Shown here one piece after another: positions 25,854 through 47,452 of a DNA stretch of 64,000 nt. The stretch's first letter is position 1; each line of letters opens with the position of its first letter. This stretch comes from Zymomonas mobilis (GTDB lineage: Bacteria; Pseudomonadota; Alphaproteobacteria; Sphingomonadales; Sphingomonadaceae). The notes below the pieces were generated by a model, which made no database searches, was not told the origin of the DNA, and saw nothing but the letters and a program-made list of their open reading frames with translations. The position numbers and the translations under genes were made by a program. Location: positions 1,064,001-1,128,000 of the forward strand of contig NZ_VFOF01000001.1 in assembly GCF_006715975.1 (NCBI RefSeq), written 5' to 3'.

Positions 25854-26759
25854 TTAACGCTGGGCGTTATCAATTGTTTCCAATTCTTTATCCAAAATTT
25901 TGATGGCTTCGGGATAATGAATACTGCCACAGAGCGTAAGCGGGGCAGGGATAAACAGCCGATGTGCCTCGGGGATGGCCTTTGTTAAAAAGGGATGCTG
26001 TAACATCAGGCTACCCATATCCTGCGAAGGATTAGCTTTTTGTCCCATAATTAAAAAATCGGGACGATATGTAACGATTTCTTCGAGAGAAAGACGCGAT
26101 AAAGCGCCTTTATTGAGGCGTGTTGCTAGATTTTTTAAACCTGCTCTTGTCATCATATCATCAACCAGACTGCCTGTGCCACTCAGATAACCTTGGCGCT
26201 GGTAATAAGCAGCGGATCGCCCCTGTCCGGCAGGTGCCGGTAAATGCGCAAGTGCCGCCTGCATTTCCCTGATTTTTTTTTCGCCCCTTTCTGGATAACC
26301 AACGGCCAAAGCGACAACCCGAATCTGGGCGATGATATCATCTACGCTGTTGGCCAAGGGGAGGTCGATAATCTTGACCTTACGATCTCTCAGCAAAGGC
26401 AAATATTCAGCATGGCTATAGCTGCTGGTGATAACGAGATCAGGATGAAGGCGCAGCAACTCTTCAGCGCTGCCATAAGCAAAGGGGAGCGATTGCGCTT
26501 CTTTGGCGATTAAAGACATATCGGGATCGCGGGCATAGCGCGTTAAAGCGGTGATCTGGGAATGATCGGCCAAGGCTACCAATAGCTCGTCTGCGCATAA
26601 ATTGAGCGACACAACACGAGAGGGGCGTTTTAAATTTTCGCTTCGCAGCGGCGATAAAAAGAGGCCAAAAAAGAGAAAAAGCCATGCCAGCCTATGCAAA
26701 GGACGGCGTATAGTGTCCCTATTTCCTCGGTCAAAAGAAGAAAATAACGATTCCAACAA
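25854..26759 (-). CDS. Periplasmic B12-type ABC transporter substrate-binding protein (BtuF-like)
   Basis: Class III periplasmic-binding fold: RVVSLNLCADELLVALADHSQITALTRYARD, then LLRLHPDLVITSSYSH, SVDDIIAQIRVVALAVGYPERGEKKI and LSLEEIVTYRPDFLIMGQKAN. A hydrophobic signal (HRLAWLFLFFGLFLSPLRS) precedes it. The longest frame starts at 26972 but runs through the cobalamin riboswitch of the opposite strand, so its first 70 residues are not real. I place the start at a TTG near 26759 behind GAGAGG. A TTG at 26699 just before the signal is also possible. It is divergent from btuB, which supports B12 binding. No BtuCD in the window. Confidence 0.8.
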   Translation of the reverse strand: MLESLFSSFDRGNRDTIRRPLHRLAWLFLFFGLFLSPLRSENLKRPSRVVSLNLCADELLVALADHSQITALTRYARDPDMSLIAKEAQSLPFAYGSAEELLRLHPDLVITSSYSHAEYLPLLRDRKVKIIDLPLANSVDDIIAQIRVVALAVGYPERGEKKIREMQAALAHLPAPAGQGRSAAYYQRQGYLSGTGSLVDDMMTRAGLKNLATRLNKGALSRLSLEEIVTYRPDFLIMGQKANPSQDMGSLMLQHPFLTKAIPEAHRLFIPAPLTLCGSIHYPEAIKILDKELETIDNAQR

Positions 26760-26805
26760 GATTGATTGACCTCTCTCGTCCTTTCCGACTACGGGGGTTC
26801 TTTTG

Positions 26806-26960
26806 CATAGGGTTCCCTTCCAAGGAAGGGAAAAGGGAATAAGGTGTAAGGCCTTTGCTGCCCCTGCAACTGTAAACAGTCGAAACGCCGAAAGCCACTG
26901 GATAATGCAATCTGGGAAGGCGGCCATTTCTATGCTGTGAGCCAGGAGACCGACCCTATG
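26806..26960 (+). promoter_or_regulatory. Cobalamin riboswitch upstream of btuB
   Basis: The conserved core reads GCTGCCCCTGCAACTGTAA (from 26857), then AAAGCCACTGG (from 26891), CTGGGAAGG and the 3' B12-box part GCCAGGAGACC (from 26941). A terminal P1 helix closes it: CATAGGGT (26806-26813) with ACCCTATG (26953-26960). A 133-base leader follows before the btuB ATG, which has AGAGGGGGG as ribosome-binding site. Adenosylcobalamin binding is expected to reduce btuB expression. Confidence 0.95.
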
Positions 26961-27093
26961 TAATCGTTCCACGATCGGACAGGGGATTCTGATCGAACGA
27001 GGTAATTTCTTCCTCGCACGGGCGATAAATTGTGACCTTCAGGCCATATTGGTCTGTGGGGGTGTCTGGCTGTGACTAATAGAGGGGGGATCA

Positions 27094-29190
27094 ATGGCTC
27101 GATTATTTCTTTTATCGACTTTAGCTTTAACAACGACGAGTTTAGCGGCATTTCAGCCTGTTTTGGCAAAAGAAAATGACCATCATCATGATGCAGGCAA
27201 AATAAACCATAAAAACGACAAAAAGCTTTCTGGAAAACAAAATTCCGAAAAAGCACAGGATAAGACGCAAAATATCAACGCCTCTGATCCGGATGCCGAC
27301 GCTTTGGCGATTGCCAGCAGCAACCAACCTTCTTTGGTGGTGACTGCGTCCAGAACACCAGAAAAAGCCGATCAGGTTTCTTCCCAAGTAACGGTCTTGG
27401 ATAAAGCCGCCATTGATCACAGTCAGGGTATGGCAATTTCCGATATTTTGGTCAGAACACCGGGTGTAACGGTCGCTAGAAATGGTGGCTATGGAACGGC
27501 AACTTCTGTCTTTATCCGTGGTGCGGAATCTGGTCAGACGATGATGGTTATTGATGGGGTCAGAATGACCGATGCCTCATCAACCAATAATGGCTATGAT
27601 TTCGGGACTTTGATGACGGGGGATACTTCACGTATTGAAGTTTTGCGTGGTTCCCAGTCTATTTTATGGGGCAGTCAGGCAATCGGTGGTGTGGTCAATA
27701 TCGTGACCGCGATGCCGACAAAGCCTTTAGGGGGCAGTGTTGACCTCGAAATGGGTTCACATAGCACCATCAATGCCCGTGCCGCTATCGGGGGCAAAAC
27801 TGACCGGATTACATGGCGTTTGGCGGGTAATAATTTTTATACTAAAGGTATTTCCACAATCAGCCCGCGTTATGGCGGCCATGAACAGGATGGTTATCAT
27901 AACCGTTCCGCCACGGGTCGAGTCAATATTAAGCTTATTGATGAAGTGTCGGTCGATTTGAGAGGTTATTACTCTAAGGCGATGACCGATCTTGATAGCA
28001 GCTATGGCACGCCAGACACCTCTGATTATGAAAATAAAGAGCAATGGATGGGCTATGCCGGTTTGAATGTTGCGTTATTCGATAATCGGTTACGGAATCG
28101 TTTTGGCTACAGTTATACCCAGACCAAAAGAAACGATATCAGCCCGTCTTTCGAACCGTATAATACCGATACTTTCTTAGGGAATGGTCATACCAGACGT
28201 TTTGAATATCAGGGCAGCTTGGCCTTGGTCAAAAACTGGGATCTCGTTTTCGGTTATGAAAATGAGCGGAGCGGTATGAAAAGTTCTTCGCCTGCCTATG
28301 GTGGTTCCGATACCCGTGGAAGAATTGATATCAACAGCGTTTATGGACAGATAAAAGGGAAGATTATCAAAGGCTTCTCGGTCGATGGTGGTGTCCGTTA
28401 TGACCATCATTCGAAATTCGGCGGCAATGTTCTATTCTCTGGCGGTGGTGTTTGGGCGTTTAATAACGATAATACCGTCTTTCGGGCGCATTATGGGGAA
28501 GGGTTCAATGCCCCTTCGCTTTATCAAATCTATAGTGAATACGGTAACCAGAATCTGAAACCGGAAAAATCACATGGTTGGGATGCCGGTTTCCAGCAGC
28601 GTTTTTTTGATAAGCATTTGACGATTGGTGCGGATTATTTCCAGAGAACGTCCACTAACCTGATCGCTTATCTGAGCTGCCCTTATTCCGGCGAGTTACC
28701 TGCCATTTGTTATGTGCCGAATACCAACACGCCCCGCTATGGTTATTATGACAATATCAACCGCAGCACGGCACACGGCGTTGAAGTCAATGCCAGCCTT
28801 GATATCAAACGCGTTTCTTTGAATGGTAACTACACTTGGACTTCGGTTAAAGACCGTTCGGATGGTGTGGATTATGGCTATCAATTACCCAGACGGCCTA
28901 AAAACACCGCCAATGGATCGGCTGATTATCATTGGAAATTCGGTCTTGTGACCGGTATTGCTGTCCGTTGGGCATCGAAATCATGGGATACGGTGCATAG
29001 CGAATACAGCATGAATCCGCATATGAATCGGGGTTATACCCTTTATGATTTGCGACTGGAAATGCCGGTTTCAAAACATCTGACCGTATTTGGCCGCGTC
29101 GAAAATCTGACCGACAAATATTATGAAACCGCCTATCGTTATGGCACTTTAGGTCGGACATTTTACGGCGGCATTCGCGCCCGCCTGTAA
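27094..29190 (+). CDS. btuB: TonB-dependent vitamin B12 receptor (BtuB-like)
   Basis: Outer-membrane active transporter for cobalamins. A signal peptide ends near FQPVLA-KEND. A His/Lys/Asp-rich linker of about 45 residues follows. Then come the TonB box and plug (LVVTASRTPEKADQVSSQVTVLDKAAID, ISDILVRTPGVTVARNGG, IEVLRGSQSILWGSQAIGGVVNIVT) and a 22-strand barrel ending ENLTDKYYETAYRYGTLGRTFYGGIRARL. 698 residues. The cobalamin riboswitch upstream and a BtuF-like gene divergent from it support B12 as the substrate. Confidence 0.93.
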   Translation: MARLFLLSTLALTTTSLAAFQPVLAKENDHHHDAGKINHKNDKKLSGKQNSEKAQDKTQNINASDPDADALAIASSNQPSLVVTASRTPEKADQVSSQVTVLDKAAIDHSQGMAISDILVRTPGVTVARNGGYGTATSVFIRGAESGQTMMVIDGVRMTDASSTNNGYDFGTLMTGDTSRIEVLRGSQSILWGSQAIGGVVNIVTAMPTKPLGGSVDLEMGSHSTINARAAIGGKTDRITWRLAGNNFYTKGISTISPRYGGHEQDGYHNRSATGRVNIKLIDEVSVDLRGYYSKAMTDLDSSYGTPDTSDYENKEQWMGYAGLNVALFDNRLRNRFGYSYTQTKRNDISPSFEPYNTDTFLGNGHTRRFEYQGSLALVKNWDLVFGYENERSGMKSSSPAYGGSDTRGRIDINSVYGQIKGKIIKGFSVDGGVRYDHHSKFGGNVLFSGGGVWAFNNDNTVFRAHYGEGFNAPSLYQIYSEYGNQNLKPEKSHGWDAGFQQRFFDKHLTIGADYFQRTSTNLIAYLSCPYSGELPAICYVPNTNTPRYGYYDNINRSTAHGVEVNASLDIKRVSLNGNYTWTSVKDRSDGVDYGYQLPRRPKNTANGSADYHWKFGLVTGIAVRWASKSWDTVHSEYSMNPHMNRGYTLYDLRLEMPVSKHLTVFGRVENLTDKYYETAYRYGTLGRTFYGGIRARL

Positions 29191-30457: not shown

Positions 30458-32023
30458 TTAGAGATTATAATTTTCCTGCCATATTTTGATCAGCCTTTGC
30501 GTATAATCATGCTTTGGCTTGGTGAAAATAGATTTGGTGCTTTCGTTTTCTATAACACGCCCCTTATAGAGAATCACCATTCGGGTTGCAAAAAAACGGG
30601 CAAAAGTAAGATCATGCGTTACCAATAAACAGGCCAGATTCTCTTGTTCAGACAGAGCTATCAGACTTTTTCCGATTTCCACCCGATTGCGACTATCCAA
30701 AGCCGAAAAGGCTTCGTCCAATAACAATAGTTCGGGTTCATTGACGAGGGCGCGGGCGATCGCCACCCGTTGACATTGTCCACCAGACAGGGTTGCCGGA
30801 TAGCGTTTTGTGATATCGGACGGCAAAGCCGCCTTTTCAAGGGCGCTTTGAAGCATATTAAAGCGCATTTCCGGCGATAAAGTGGTTTTCTTTTGGTAAA
30901 GATTCAGTGGTTCTGTAACCGTTTTTTCTACTGTCCAAGTCGGATCAAGGCTGCTGGTCGGATCTTGGAAAACCATCTGCATTTTTTGGTAAAGGGCAAG
31001 ACGATCTTGTTTTTTTTCAAAAGAAATAGCCTGATCTTGCCATAGAATTTCGCCTGAAGACGCTGGTAAAAGGCCAGATATCAATTTGAGTAAAGTCGAC
31101 TTTCCGGCTCCAGACTCTCCGATAATAGCAACTTTTTCTCCGGCTTTTATCTGGAGGTTGATATCACCCAACAGATTATTGTCTTTCTCCTGATAAGACA
31201 GATTGCGAAGGGTTAATAACGGTGCAGATATCGGCCTATGGTCAGCAGTTTCTGTTTCAGAATAAGGAGCAGCATTCAGCTGGTGATAGGATTGGATGAT
31301 GTCTTGGCTATAGCAATCTTGTGGATTTGACCACCAGCGCTGGCTCGCCATTTTTGAAACAAGCTCGCCATCTTTTAAAACCACGATACGTTCCGCCATA
31401 TGAACGGCCAAGGCTGGATTATGGCTGATGAGTAAAATGGCGGTTTCACGATTTTCGGTTGCCCGTTTGAAGATCGCCATAATCTGGGCTTCAGTGAGCA
31501 TGTCGAGGGCAGAGCTTGGCTCATCTGCAATCAATAAGCTGGGCTTTGACGCGAGAGCGACTGCAATGGCTGCCCGTTGTCGTTGTCCGCCAGAAAGTTG
31601 ATGCGGATAACGTTTCGCCATATCCGGTGTCAGCCCGACCTGCCGCAAGGCTTCTGCAACACGGGAAGCTGTCTGATCAGACTTGTCTTTAATGCTTTCC
31701 TGAAGGTGGTTGCCAATACTTTTCATTGGATCAAGAAAACGCAAAGAATCCTGTCCGATAAAGGCAATTTTTTGACCGCGCCAGTCATTCATCTGCTTTT
31801 CGGAAAGCTGCATTAAATCGGTTTTTCCAATACGAAGCGCACCGGATAAAGTAAGATTTTCTGGTAACAGTCGTAAAATGCTGCGGGCAAGGGTAGATTT
31901 CCCAGAACCGGATTCCCCGATTATTCCGACGATTTCACCGCGTCCGATGCGAAAGCCGATATCCTTTAACAAAAAGCGATCTTTTGCTTTAACGGACAGA
32001 TGTTCGATGGCCAAAAATGTCAT
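30458..32023 (-). CDS. Duplicated ATPase of a peptide-type ABC transporter (YejF/GsiA type)
   Basis: Two complete nucleotide-binding domains in one 521-residue chain. The first has GESGSGKST at 36-44 and signature LSGGQRQR. The second has GESGAGKST near residue 305 and signature LSGGQCQR, each followed by a D-loop and His switch (LISHNPALA, LLVTHDLTFA). Such double ATPases power dipeptide, glutathione or microcin C import. It overlaps the DppC-type permease gene by 4 bases and is the last gene of the three-gene transporter. Confidence 0.93.
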   Translation of the reverse strand: MTFLAIEHLSVKAKDRFLLKDIGFRIGRGEIVGIIGESGSGKSTLARSILRLLPENLTLSGALRIGKTDLMQLSEKQMNDWRGQKIAFIGQDSLRFLDPMKSIGNHLQESIKDKSDQTASRVAEALRQVGLTPDMAKRYPHQLSGGQRQRAAIAVALASKPSLLIADEPSSALDMLTEAQIMAIFKRATENRETAILLISHNPALAVHMAERIVVLKDGELVSKMASQRWWSNPQDCYSQDIIQSYHQLNAAPYSETETADHRPISAPLLTLRNLSYQEKDNNLLGDINLQIKAGEKVAIIGESGAGKSTLLKLISGLLPASSGEILWQDQAISFEKKQDRLALYQKMQMVFQDPTSSLDPTWTVEKTVTEPLNLYQKKTTLSPEMRFNMLQSALEKAALPSDITKRYPATLSGGQCQRVAIARALVNEPELLLLDEAFSALDSRNRVEIGKSLIALSEQENLACLLVTHDLTFARFFATRMVILYKGRVIENESTKSIFTKPKHDYTQRLIKIWQENYNL

Positions 32024-32838
32024 AATCTATTTTGTGCCTGATAACGGATAAGACCTTCGCCAATCATCTGGCAGGAAGATATAATCCAAAAAAGCATAAT
32101 CCCCGGCCATATAGCGAGCCATGGCGCAATATTCAGCAGATTTTGGGCTTCTAGCAACATGCGACCCAAAGACGGAACGGGAGGCTGAATGCCGATGCCG
32201 ATATAGGAAAGCGCCGCTTCCGCGATAAAGGCAAAGCCACATTGACTGCTGGCCTGTGTTAGTAACGGCACCGTGATATTGGGGAAAATATGTTGAAAGG
32301 CGATAGCAATGCGTCCTTTGCCCGATAATTGGGCGGCGGCGATAAAATCAAAAGAGGCAATACTTGTGCCATGATTGCAAGCCACACGGGCAAAAACCGG
32401 AATGGCATAAACGGCAATAGCCAGCATAACATTTTGCCCACCGGAACCACATAGTAATTGCAAGAGTAAGGCCGCAATCAAGGCCGGAAAGGCAAAAAGG
32501 ATATCACTGGCCTGCATCAGCATTTCACCTAATCCGTCACGACGGACGGCGGCAATCAGCCCGATAGGGACGCCGATTATAAAGCCTAACCCCACCGCAG
32601 GAAAAACAATTAGGCTGGAACAAGCAGCAGCAATGACCACTTCTTTTAAAACATCGCGACCAAAAGCATCTGTGCCAAAAAAATGATGCCATGAAGGCGC
32701 CTGTAAACGCTCGGCCAAGGTAATGGGTGGAACAAGGCCATAAAGAAGGTAGCCGCCTATCGATACCGATAAAAACAGAATAAGGCCAAGTAGACCCAAG
32801 CGCAGCAAGATAGGCAAAGAGCGGAAATTGGATATCAT
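32020..32838 (-). CDS. Peptide-type ABC transporter permease (DppC/YejE-like)
   Basis: A 272-residue inner-membrane protein with about six helices and the typical PSWHHFFGTDAFGRDVLKEVVIAA entry motif of the DppC/OppC branch, plus an EAA-like loop SGKGRIAIAFQHIFPNITVPLLTQ. It starts 1 base after the stop of the SBP-permease fusion gene and overlaps the ATPase gene. It supplies the second permease half. Substrate class (oligopeptide, nickel or similar) is not resolved. Confidence 0.92.
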   Translation of the reverse strand: MISNFRSLPILLRLGLLGLILFLSVSIGGYLLYGLVPPITLAERLQAPSWHHFFGTDAFGRDVLKEVVIAAACSSLIVFPAVGLGFIIGVPIGLIAAVRRDGLGEMLMQASDILFAFPALIAALLLQLLCGSGGQNVMLAIAVYAIPVFARVACNHGTSIASFDFIAAAQLSGKGRIAIAFQHIFPNITVPLLTQASSQCGFAFIAEAALSYIGIGIQPPVPSLGRMLLEAQNLLNIAPWLAIWPGIMLFWIISSCQMIGEGLIRYQAQNRL

Positions 32839-32839
32839 T

Positions 32840-35344
32840 CTATTTTAACCGTGGATCAATGGCGTGATGCAAAAGATTGCTGATAAAGCGGGTAAACAAG
32901 GTCACAGTTGCAATCAGAAGGGCAATAGCCTGTATCAAAACAAGATCACGGGCGGCAATAGCCTGCAAAAGAAGACGACCTAATCCGGGTAAATAAAAAA
33001 TATTTTCAACAATGACGGTGCCAGTAAGCATGGCAGGTAGGGAAAGCGCCAACAAGGGCAATAACGAAGGCAAAGCATGGCGAATAGCATGATGGATGAT
33101 GGCTTGCGAACGGGATAATCCCCGCGCCCGTGCCGCCATGATGAAATCTTCTTGTTCAATGGCCTGCAATTGCTGACTAAAGGCACGGGCGAGCCATGTT
33201 GCCTGCGGCAAAGACAAGGCGATAACCGGCCAGTAGAACGCCGGTTGGCCTAGTAAGGTGAAAATGGAGACGTTATGATCCACGGCCAAAGGCCAATGGA
33301 AATGAAGTGCCGCATAAAGCAATAAAATAGCTATCCAAAAGCCCGGTAAAGAAAGGCCTATACGGGTCAAGATAACAAGAAAGCCTCGTAAAGAACGATA
33401 GCGCAATAACACAATAGCAAGCCCAAAAAGAAAACCACCGACAGCCGCAAAAAGGAAAGAAACCAGCACAAGGGGAAGGGAAATGTTTAAAGCTTCCCTG
33501 ATCAAATCACTGGCCGGAATATGGTAGCTGAAGCTTGTTCCGAAATCACCTTGCAGGCTGTGGAAAAGCCAGTTCGCGTAACGCATATAGGCGGGTTTAT
33601 CGAGGCCAAATTCAGCCTGCACTGCCGCCAATGCACGGGGGCTAGCCTGTAATCCCATCATATATTCGGCGGGATCTCCCGGCAGAACAGACAGCAATCC
33701 GAAAATAATGACGCTGGCTATCCATAAGGCCAATAGAAATAGCCCGATTTTTTTCAAAAATGCAGATGGCGTTAATAGGTGGAAATGCAGGGTAATCGCA
33801 AAAAAGAGCAGTAAAAAAGTGGCAACCAACCATAACCCAAGATGTGTGGTTATCGAGCTATTATAAGATACCGAATGCGAGGTTGTGCCATAGCTATGGG
33901 TAAAATAAGCAGATGTCAGGTCAAAAGCCTGTGTCGGGCTACCGCGCCATAATCCGGCCAAATCAGCATTGGAGACAGCAAGATGAGGATATTGGAATAA
34001 GAAAACATTTGCCGCGTCATAGGTTAAGATTTTTTGAAGAGATTGCAGTTTTTGATGTCTTTGAAACGGGTCACTTTCCTGATCAAGTTGATCTAAAAGG
34101 GTATGAAATTCGGTTTTATGATAACCGAAATAATAGCCGTTTTTGTCGTAAATTCGGTAATCAAATGGTTCAGCATGATTGATAACGGTTAGCTGGAAAT
34201 CATGTTTTTTATAAACACGGTCGAGCCATGTCGCCCATTCTATTTGGCGAAGTGTAAGATGAATGCCGATTTTGCCTAATTGATCGGCGATTAACTGCCC
34301 CGAAAGCAACGCATAGCGGGACGGTGGCAAATCAATGACAAGGTTTAATCCGTTGGGATATCCGGCCTGTTTTAACAAGTCTTTCGCTTTTATTGGGTCA
34401 CAGCGATAAACTGAGGTCAGATCGAGATGATCAGGGTTTTGCGGCGGAAAATGGCTGCTGATGATGCGGCCATATCCATAAAGAACGCCGTCAATGAGGG
34501 CTGGGCGATTAATTGCTAGCGAAATCGCCTGCCGTAAAAGGCGATTTTGAAACAGCGGTACATTCTGATTAAAGGCAAGAATGACCTCGCCTTCGCTAGG
34601 AAAACTCGAAACTTTGAAATGCGGGTCATGCGCCAGCTCTTTTAGATTTTCCGATGAAGGGAAATCTGGAAAAAAGTCAACCTGACCTGTCTTTACCGCT
34701 GCATAAGCCGCCAAGGGATCTGATATAAAAAAGAAATTCAAGGCCGCGATGGAGGGTTTCTTTCCCCAGTAATCAGAGCGCGCGAGCAGTTGAATACGGT
34801 TTCCATGTTGCCATTCATGAAAACGGAAAGCCCCTGTGCCAATGGGTGAAACCGCAAGATGATTGGCCGATTTTGGCGAAACCATAACGCAATCAGGCAA
34901 CGACAATAAGGTCAGAAAAAAGCTGTCTGCCTTTTTTAAGGTAATACGAAGCTGGAAAGGCGAGGGGGTTTCTATCTTTTCAATAATAGACAGAGCTTCT
35001 TGCTGAACATTGGCCGAATTTTCTGCCCTTGCGCGGTTCAGGCTAAACCCGGCGGCGGCGGCATTAAAAGGCTGTCCATCAGAAAAGCTGACATCCTGCC
35101 GAAGATTAAAAAGATATTCTTTACCGTCTTTATTGATTGTCCAGTTTTTGGTCAGCCATGCTTCGGGGTGTCCATCGGTTGAAAGCCGAACCAAGCCTTC
35201 AAAAATAGTCCCGTAGCTGACGTCATCAATAACCGCGGAAGCGCCTGCCGTGGAATCCAGTGAAGGTGGTTCCATTTGCAACGCGATATTAAGCTGATCT
35301 TTAGCGATTGCGGGGGCAGAATTGAACATTCCCCAAAGGATCAA
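32840..35344 (-). CDS. Fusion of an extracellular solute-binding protein (family 5) with a DppB-type ABC permease
   Basis: One uninterrupted 834-residue frame. Residues about 15-485 are a family 5 solute-binding protein (ALQMEPPSLDSTAG, YGTIFEGLVRLSTDG, GTGAFRFHEWQHGNRI, RQAISLAINRPALIDGVLYG). A hydrophobic helix at about 502-522 follows. Residues about 530-834 are a DppB-type permease (VLPGDPAEYMMGLQASPRALAAVQAEFGLDKPAYMRYANW, the EAA loop QEDFIMAARARGLSRSQAIIHHAIRHALPSLL, NIFYLPGLGRLLLQAI). The extra helix lets the chain return to the cytoplasm so the permease keeps its normal topology. The start is uncertain: TTG at 35344 or ATG at 35329 give a short signal, while the frame upstream (THITAFFLLILWGMFNSAPAIA) looks like a fuller signal without a standard start codon. 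Confidence 0.88.
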   Translation of the reverse strand: MILWGMFNSAPAIAKDQLNIALQMEPPSLDSTAGASAVIDDVSYGTIFEGLVRLSTDGHPEAWLTKNWTINKDGKEYLFNLRQDVSFSDGQPFNAAAAGFSLNRARAENSANVQQEALSIIEKIETPSPFQLRITLKKADSFFLTLLSLPDCVMVSPKSANHLAVSPIGTGAFRFHEWQHGNRIQLLARSDYWGKKPSIAALNFFFISDPLAAYAAVKTGQVDFFPDFPSSENLKELAHDPHFKVSSFPSEGEVILAFNQNVPLFQNRLLRQAISLAINRPALIDGVLYGYGRIISSHFPPQNPDHLDLTSVYRCDPIKAKDLLKQAGYPNGLNLVIDLPPSRYALLSGQLIADQLGKIGIHLTLRQIEWATWLDRVYKKHDFQLTVINHAEPFDYRIYDKNGYYFGYHKTEFHTLLDQLDQESDPFQRHQKLQSLQKILTYDAANVFLFQYPHLAVSNADLAGLWRGSPTQAFDLTSAYFTHSYGTTSHSVSYNSSITTHLGLWLVATFLLLFFAITLHFHLLTPSAFLKKIGLFLLALWIASVIIFGLLSVLPGDPAEYMMGLQASPRALAAVQAEFGLDKPAYMRYANWLFHSLQGDFGTSFSYHIPASDLIREALNISLPLVLVSFLFAAVGGFLFGLAIVLLRYRSLRGFLVILTRIGLSLPGFWIAILLLYAALHFHWPLAVDHNVSIFTLLGQPAFYWPVIALSLPQATWLARAFSQQLQAIEQEDFIMAARARGLSRSQAIIHHAIRHALPSLLPLLALSLPAMLTGTVIVENIFYLPGLGRLLLQAIAARDLVLIQAIALLIATVTLFTRFISNLLHHAIDPRLK

Positions 35345-35443
35345 GAGAAAGAACGCGGTTATATGAGTAACAATAGGACGGATAGGGGGGTATCCTTTGC
35401 TAGTTCAAGCCATCTAATGAGATAGGCTTTTAGCCAAGAATGG

Positions 35444-47084: not shown

Positions 47085-47260
47085 CCTTTTCGGCTATCCT
47101 CTGTCTGTTCGTTCTGCAAGTTTTCCCTATTTATCTGGCAAAAATCTTTTCTTTTTCGTGATCACAGACGCCATTTCCCTCTAATTAAAAAATAAACATA
47201 TAAACACATCTTTATATTTAGCTTGACCTTTGCCTCCTGATCGGAGAGCAAGAGGAAGGA

Positions 47261-47436
47261 TTAAGGTTCTTTGTTGCTAACAAAGCTAAGAGGGAAACTG
47301 GTGAAAAAAGATTTTTTAAAGCCAGTGCTGCCCCCGCAACTGTAAACGGCGAGCAAAGATCATTGTGCCACTGATATTGCAATATCGGGAAGGCCGATCT
47401 GAGGCGATGAACCGTAAGTCAGGAGACCTGCCTTAA
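47261..47436 (+). promoter_or_regulatory. Cobalamin riboswitch upstream of metE
   Basis: Conserved core GCTGCCCCCGCAACTGTAA (from 47327), then GTGCCACTG (47365), CGGGAAGGCCGAT and GTCAGGAGACC (from 47418). TTAAGG (47261-47266) pairs with CCTTAA (47431-47436) as P1. Its target metE encodes the B12-independent methionine synthase, so B12 should switch it off. A long hairpin follows (47453-47489). Confidence 0.95.
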
Positions 47437-47452
47437 ACCAGTCATCCATCCA

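Follow-up and report, generated by a model that had tools for sequence, protein, structure and literature searches.

A fused receptor-permease subunit predicted for a peptide-type ABC importer of Zymomonas mobilis and related bacteria

A single uninterrupted reading frame of Zymomonas mobilis joins a solute-binding protein (SBP) to a DppB-type permease. It is highly probable that this one chain forms the receptor-permease subunit of an ABC importer of the peptide type (peptide/nickel family), a reading that includes a single origin of the fusion and a peptide cargo. Positions refer to the window, the whole stretch of 64,000 nucleotides that was analysed.

The fused gene and its operon

Positions 32840-35344 on the minus strand form one open frame of 834 codons. 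Pfam recognizes in its product SBP_bac_5 (PF00496; residues 60-389, E 5e-75), BPD_transp_1_N (PF19300; residues 536-598) and BPD_transp_1 (PF00528; residues 637-834, E 8e-28), which confirms what a preliminary description of this DNA had claimed, namely a family 5 SBP and a DppB-type permease in one frame. The parts of the gene and of its operon are as follows.

32840..35383, minus strand: fused SBP/permease gene (open frame and Pfam), ending with TAG at 32842-32840 and 847 codons long if read from the proposed ATC
33911..35302, minus strand: SBP_bac_5 (cluster C) domain (Pfam and nearest solved folds)
33857..33910, minus strand: tether of ~18 residues with low conservation, predicted to be disordered
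33788..33856, minus strand: added transmembrane helix between the domains (AlphaFold models and hydropathy)
32843..33775, minus strand: DppB/NikB-type permease domain (Pfam and profile match to E. coli DppB, 8z1v)
32020..32838, minus strand: DppC/NikC-type permease partner (Pfam PF00528), intact
30458..32023, minus strand: double ATPase of the DppD-DppF type, both halves in a single protein (two ABC_tran matches), intact

The solved folds nearest to the binding domain are 5u4o, GsiB/YliB (1uqw), AgaA, AapF and DppA. The permease domain aligns to E. coli DppB and carries its EAA loop at ~33035-33133. A gap of 1 nt separates the TAG stop of the fused gene from the ATG of the partner permease, and the double ATPase also matches models of the NikD/NikE/YejF type. 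The earlier statement that the rest of the operon is complete thus holds for both the DppC-type permease and the double ATPase. The proposal of a tethered receptor in a peptide-type importer is likewise supported.

Topology of the fused chain

The hydrophobic segment between the domains of the Zymomonas protein has a mean hydropathy of 2.18 over 19 residues (~501-519 in the 834-residue numbering). Its outer flank is devoid of K/R while the loop to TM1 has two K. The same stretch has hydropathy values of 1.69-2.68 in the first 12 fused proteins measured and of 1.87-2.76 in 22 further ones (34/34 in total). The order found in 12 fused proteins is a variable linker, the helix, a loop with 2-4 K/R and TM1 of the permease. 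Unfused binding proteins end at the equivalent of residue ~494 (847-residue numbering) and the hydrophobic stretch is absent from the carboxyl termini of all 31 inspected, whose best 19-residue hydropathy is at most 1.45. The extra helix placed at ~502-522 by the preliminary description, and credited there with restoring the orientation of the permease, is accordingly found as a hydrophobic stretch and predicted helix in 34 of the 34 fused proteins.

AlphaFold models of two fused proteins feature a two-lobed SBP fold followed by a loose linker, a helix and the permease helices. The helix is predicted with moderate confidence in the Zymomonas protein (residues 510-536, pLDDT ~51-69; whole model, mean pLDDT 82 and pTM 0.59) and confidently in the homologue from genome G338 (residues 509-533, pLDDT ~71-90; mean pLDDT 86 and pTM 0.67). 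Residues 497-515 of the Zymomonas model have pLDDT below 50 and the tether sequence differs among genomes. The modelled arrangement of the binding domain relative to the permease is uncertain because of the pTM values of 0.59 and 0.67.

The signal peptide would route the binding domain to the periplasm, from where the tether of ~18 residues would lead to the added helix. This helix would cross back to the cytoplasm, allowing the permease half to retain its normal topology. The disordered and poorly conserved linker would also suit a protease, and a cut there after export would yield a free binding protein and an ordinary importer. The fused proteins compared have no conserved cleavage motif in the linker, and such processing is judged quite improbable. 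Note that conservation of the helix does not decide this point, because the topology needs it with or without a periplasmic cut. For an uncut chain, the fused subunit would combine with its separate permease partner of the DppC type and with the double ATPase; the channel would be a heterodimer to which one receptor stays permanently attached. A receptor/transporter ratio of 1:1 would follow from this architecture. The tether may hold the receptor near its presumed docking site, replacing the free periplasmic pool.

Distribution and origin of the fusion

Protein searches of sampled genomes, whose matches above the search threshold were followed by our own six-frame check of the DNA, identified a single frame with both domains in 34 genomes. 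They comprise four Zymomonas species, 10 other members of the family to which the window belongs, and 20 genomes of one genus (g408) from another alphaproteobacterial family (f189). An orthologue from another Zymomonas genome is 75% identical to the fused protein. The system is rare in the window's family (10 of the 398 sampled genomes) and every orthologue found there is fused. The fusion is common in g408: it is present in 20 of the 60 sampled genomes of f189, all of them from g408. G1169, from a different genus of f189, has the two domains as separate matches. About 40 orthologues elsewhere are encoded by two separate genes; unfused orthologues are devoid of the added helix. Further candidates with apparently long frames (G044, G050, G025, G047, G216, G449, G602, G674, G1055, G900, G790 and others) were rejected since a stop lies between the two frames; the search reading had passed through stops and six-frame translation was decisive.

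The fusion frame could in principle be a sequencing error or the remnant of a decaying operon, as Zymomonas genomes are small (2.1 Mb; 2.10 Mb for the source genome) and Zymomonas sits on a long branch of the tree. The recurrence of this joint in four assemblies of Zymomonas and in 30 further genomes, together with the intact EAA loop, domains and partner genes, makes an artefact or chance frame vanishingly improbable. A stop codon in the joint, which the preliminary description had named as a refutation, is ruled out by the homologues with one frame in 34 genomes. The taxonomic breadth that it had proposed to survey amounts, among sampled genomes, to two alphaproteobacterial families, and conservation on this scale speaks for a functional fused unit, as had been supposed from the complete operon.

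Trees computed without the linker and helix place the fused proteins in one branch (support 93/91; 12 fused rows). The branch is recovered in a larger tree with 23 fused rows (support 94/88; in 95% of bootstrap trees) and is nested among unfused orthologues. One fusion event is thus the simplest reading of the trees. Fusion rather than later fission is likewise the simplest reading, short of proof because the root is set by distant, long-branched outgroups. The SBP and permease genes of several unfused relatives overlap or abut in different frames, which is a plausible starting point: in a single event, adjacent binding-protein and permease genes would have fused and gained the helix.

Relation to known importers

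The system has the features of peptide/nickel (Opp/Dpp/Nik) importers: a cluster C SBP, DppB- and DppC-type permeases with the EAA loop, and two ATPase domains. Its binding domain, both permeases and ATPases belong to the same families as those of DppABCDF, GsiABCD and NikABCDE. The difference is that the binding protein of these systems is separate and no helix is added, whereas here it is fused. A separate binding polypeptide is usual, though not strictly defining, in Opp/Dpp/Nik importers, and one frame takes its place in 34 genomes. None of the named NCBIfam equivalogs (NikA/B, DppA/B, GsiB, Opp1-5) matches above its cut-off (e.g., Opp2B 198.6 vs 350).

A binding domain that shares its chain with the permease, as read here from the sequence, is the feature of tethered importers of the OpuA and GlnPQ kind. 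In OpuA of Lactococcus lactis, which transports glycine betaine, the linker of 11 residues and the hydrophobic membrane anchor lack sequence conservation (PMC11065425). The likeness lies in a binding domain covalently attached to the permease by way of a short linker and a hydrophobic membrane segment. OpuA is built from two identical OpuABC chains and has two binding domains of a family other than SBP_bac_5, while the importer described here would have a heterodimeric channel and one receptor. The OpuA binding domain is found at the carboxyl terminus of the permease, unlike the amino-terminal position of the domain here. The latter position is shared with the amino acid ABC importer GlnPQ, in which the binding domains precede the permease in one chain (PMC8025302). 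GlnPQ differs by its tandem small domains, its homodimeric permease and its amino acid family. The mechanism would resemble that of OpuA; by descent the system is a member of the peptide/nickel family.

Tethered receptors of the peptide/nickel family did not come up in a limited search of the open-licence literature, and no relevant paper was found there on SBP_bac_5 plus BPD_transp_1 fusions, fused dipeptide receptors or Zymomonas peptide importers. The tethered receptors studied so far belong to homodimeric importers, whose binding domains number two or four. A naturally occurring heterodimer with one receptor would make it possible to ask if transport can run on a single tethered domain, if the family requires its usual excess of free receptor, and how a fusion of a secreted and a membrane protein becomes viable through one added helix. 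The existence of both fused and unfused orthologues makes a direct comparison possible.

Translation start

The fused frame extends beyond the TTG at 35344 that had been chosen earlier as the start, reaching upstream as far as a stop. The following features were recognized in this region.

35381..35383, minus strand: proposed non-canonical start ATC (ATT in G002), within AT[C/T]-CG[T/C] conserved in four Zymomonas species
35393..35398, minus strand: Shine-Dalgarno-like AAAGGA, whose AAGGA ends 9 nt before the ATC
35303..35383, minus strand: signal peptide, (M)RPIVTHITAFFLLILWGMFNSAPAIA, with n, h and c regions and AIA recognized by eye and equivalents in G001-G003

The AT[C/T] codon lies 8-9 nt after AAGGA (AAGG in G002) in the four Zymomonas species, and a protein begun at this codon would in all of them read (M)R... 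and continue into a full signal peptide, as judged by eye. G000, G001 and G002 have no in-frame ATG, GTG or TTG anywhere from the preceding stop to the hydrophobic core. G003 has several in-frame canonical codons, the nearest of which, an ATG at -9, directly follows AAGG and is not conserved. Because three of the four species have no canonical codon ahead of a complete signal peptide and AT[C/T] follows AAGG(A) in all four, the Zymomonas fused gene is predicted to start, probably, at AUC/AUU. Differences between G001 and G003 at the three codon positions amount to 4, 3 and 6 downstream of the proposed start and to 10, 5 and 8 upstream of it; differences are fewer downstream, though the counts by codon position alone do not separate coding from non-coding DNA. 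The control for the Shine-Dalgarno sequence was weak: a matching 4-mer stood at the first start in 11 of 38 long frames, the background rate being 10%.

Initiation at TTG 35344, or at another canonical codon, would agree with the normal use of TTG as a start and with the likely choice of gene finders, and G003 offers its ATG at -9. The TTG would truncate the signal peptide to a short hydrophobic stub without its positive end and is missing at this position in the other species. The G003 ATG directly abuts AAGG and is unconserved, and the three other genomes lack a canonical codon before the hydrophobic core. The TTG is thus probably not the start, and a canonical start of any kind appears rather unlikely.

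IF3 represses the start codons AUU and AUC of infC (in E. coli and Streptomyces, respectively) and GUC of sigR (PMC5472188). The codon predicted for the fused gene likewise falls outside AUG/GUG/UUG; unlike infC, which codes for a translation factor, and sigR, which codes for a sigma factor, the gene here codes for a transporter. Since known non-canonical starts are repressed by IF3, the AUC/AUU codon could keep the fused protein scarce, and expression in Zymomonas would remain low. The chances appear even for the combined picture of a heterodimeric peptide-family importer with exactly one tethered receptor whose output in Zymomonas is held low by a genus-conserved, IF3-controllable AUC/AUU codon. 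Such a start, if true, would place a transporter gene among the very few that use one and show how gene finders miss them.

Cargo and gene neighbourhoods

The operon is flanked by genes for a TonB-dependent receptor and a Peptidase_S58 protein in G330, G338, G349 and G390, whose TonB receptors are 57-59% identical to that of G014. An S58 gene also adjoins the operon in G1119 and is found close to two unfused operons, in G037 and G053; the unfused operons of G053, G635 and G531 have an M20 peptidase gene nearby. No S58 gene was found in G029 and G030. Zymomonas encodes no SBP_bac_5 protein besides the fused one, and its relative of the importer-adjoining enzyme is unlinked.

G000:C1:1047250-1048221 (L127:4206-5222), outside the window: Zymomonas Peptidase_S58 gene, ~48 kb away, product 54% identical to the enzyme of the G037 operon

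The genes that flank the operon in Zymomonas (dnaN, an M23/LysM peptidase gene and surE) give no clue to the substrate and look like unrelated local genes. The S58 proteins of the operons may form a distinct subgroup, since they score far lower on the Pfam model (~175 bits) than other S58 proteins of the same genomes (350-387).

Family S58 includes DmpA and BapA. These enzymes act on carnosine and beta-peptides (PMC9235088), from which a first guess for the cargo would be short peptides, perhaps with amino-terminal beta-amino acids. A peptide importer is favoured by the neighbouring TonB receptor and Peptidase_S58 genes, and the ancestral cargo was probably short peptides. They would enter through the TonB receptor and then be cleaved by the S58 enzyme.

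Nickel or other metal chelates are an unlikely alternative cargo. The best NCBIfam matches of the permease are the nickel-type Opp2B, Opp1B and NikB and the NikA models match the binding domain well, but all of them below cut-offs; a FUR-family gene after the operon in G030 would also suit a metal. Against metals stand the S58 or M20 peptidases that flank the operon in the nine genomes named above for these enzymes, and the closest solved relatives of the binding domain, whose ligands are peptides, opines or similar organic compounds. Short peptides remain the preferred cargo. Note that in G030 (L061:14690-17962) the fused importer is followed by the FUR-family regulator and by a different TonB receptor, a hint of metal-related regulation.

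Vitamin B12 uptake by the importer was considered and rejected: the window has two cobalamin riboswitches, at 26793-26972 and 47247-47449 (both plus strand), neither at the operon. The first precedes a gene for a BtuB-like TonB-dependent receptor (27094-29190, plus strand) and overlaps the start of a divergent frame (25854-26972, minus strand) that matches periplasmic ABC substrate-binding proteins.
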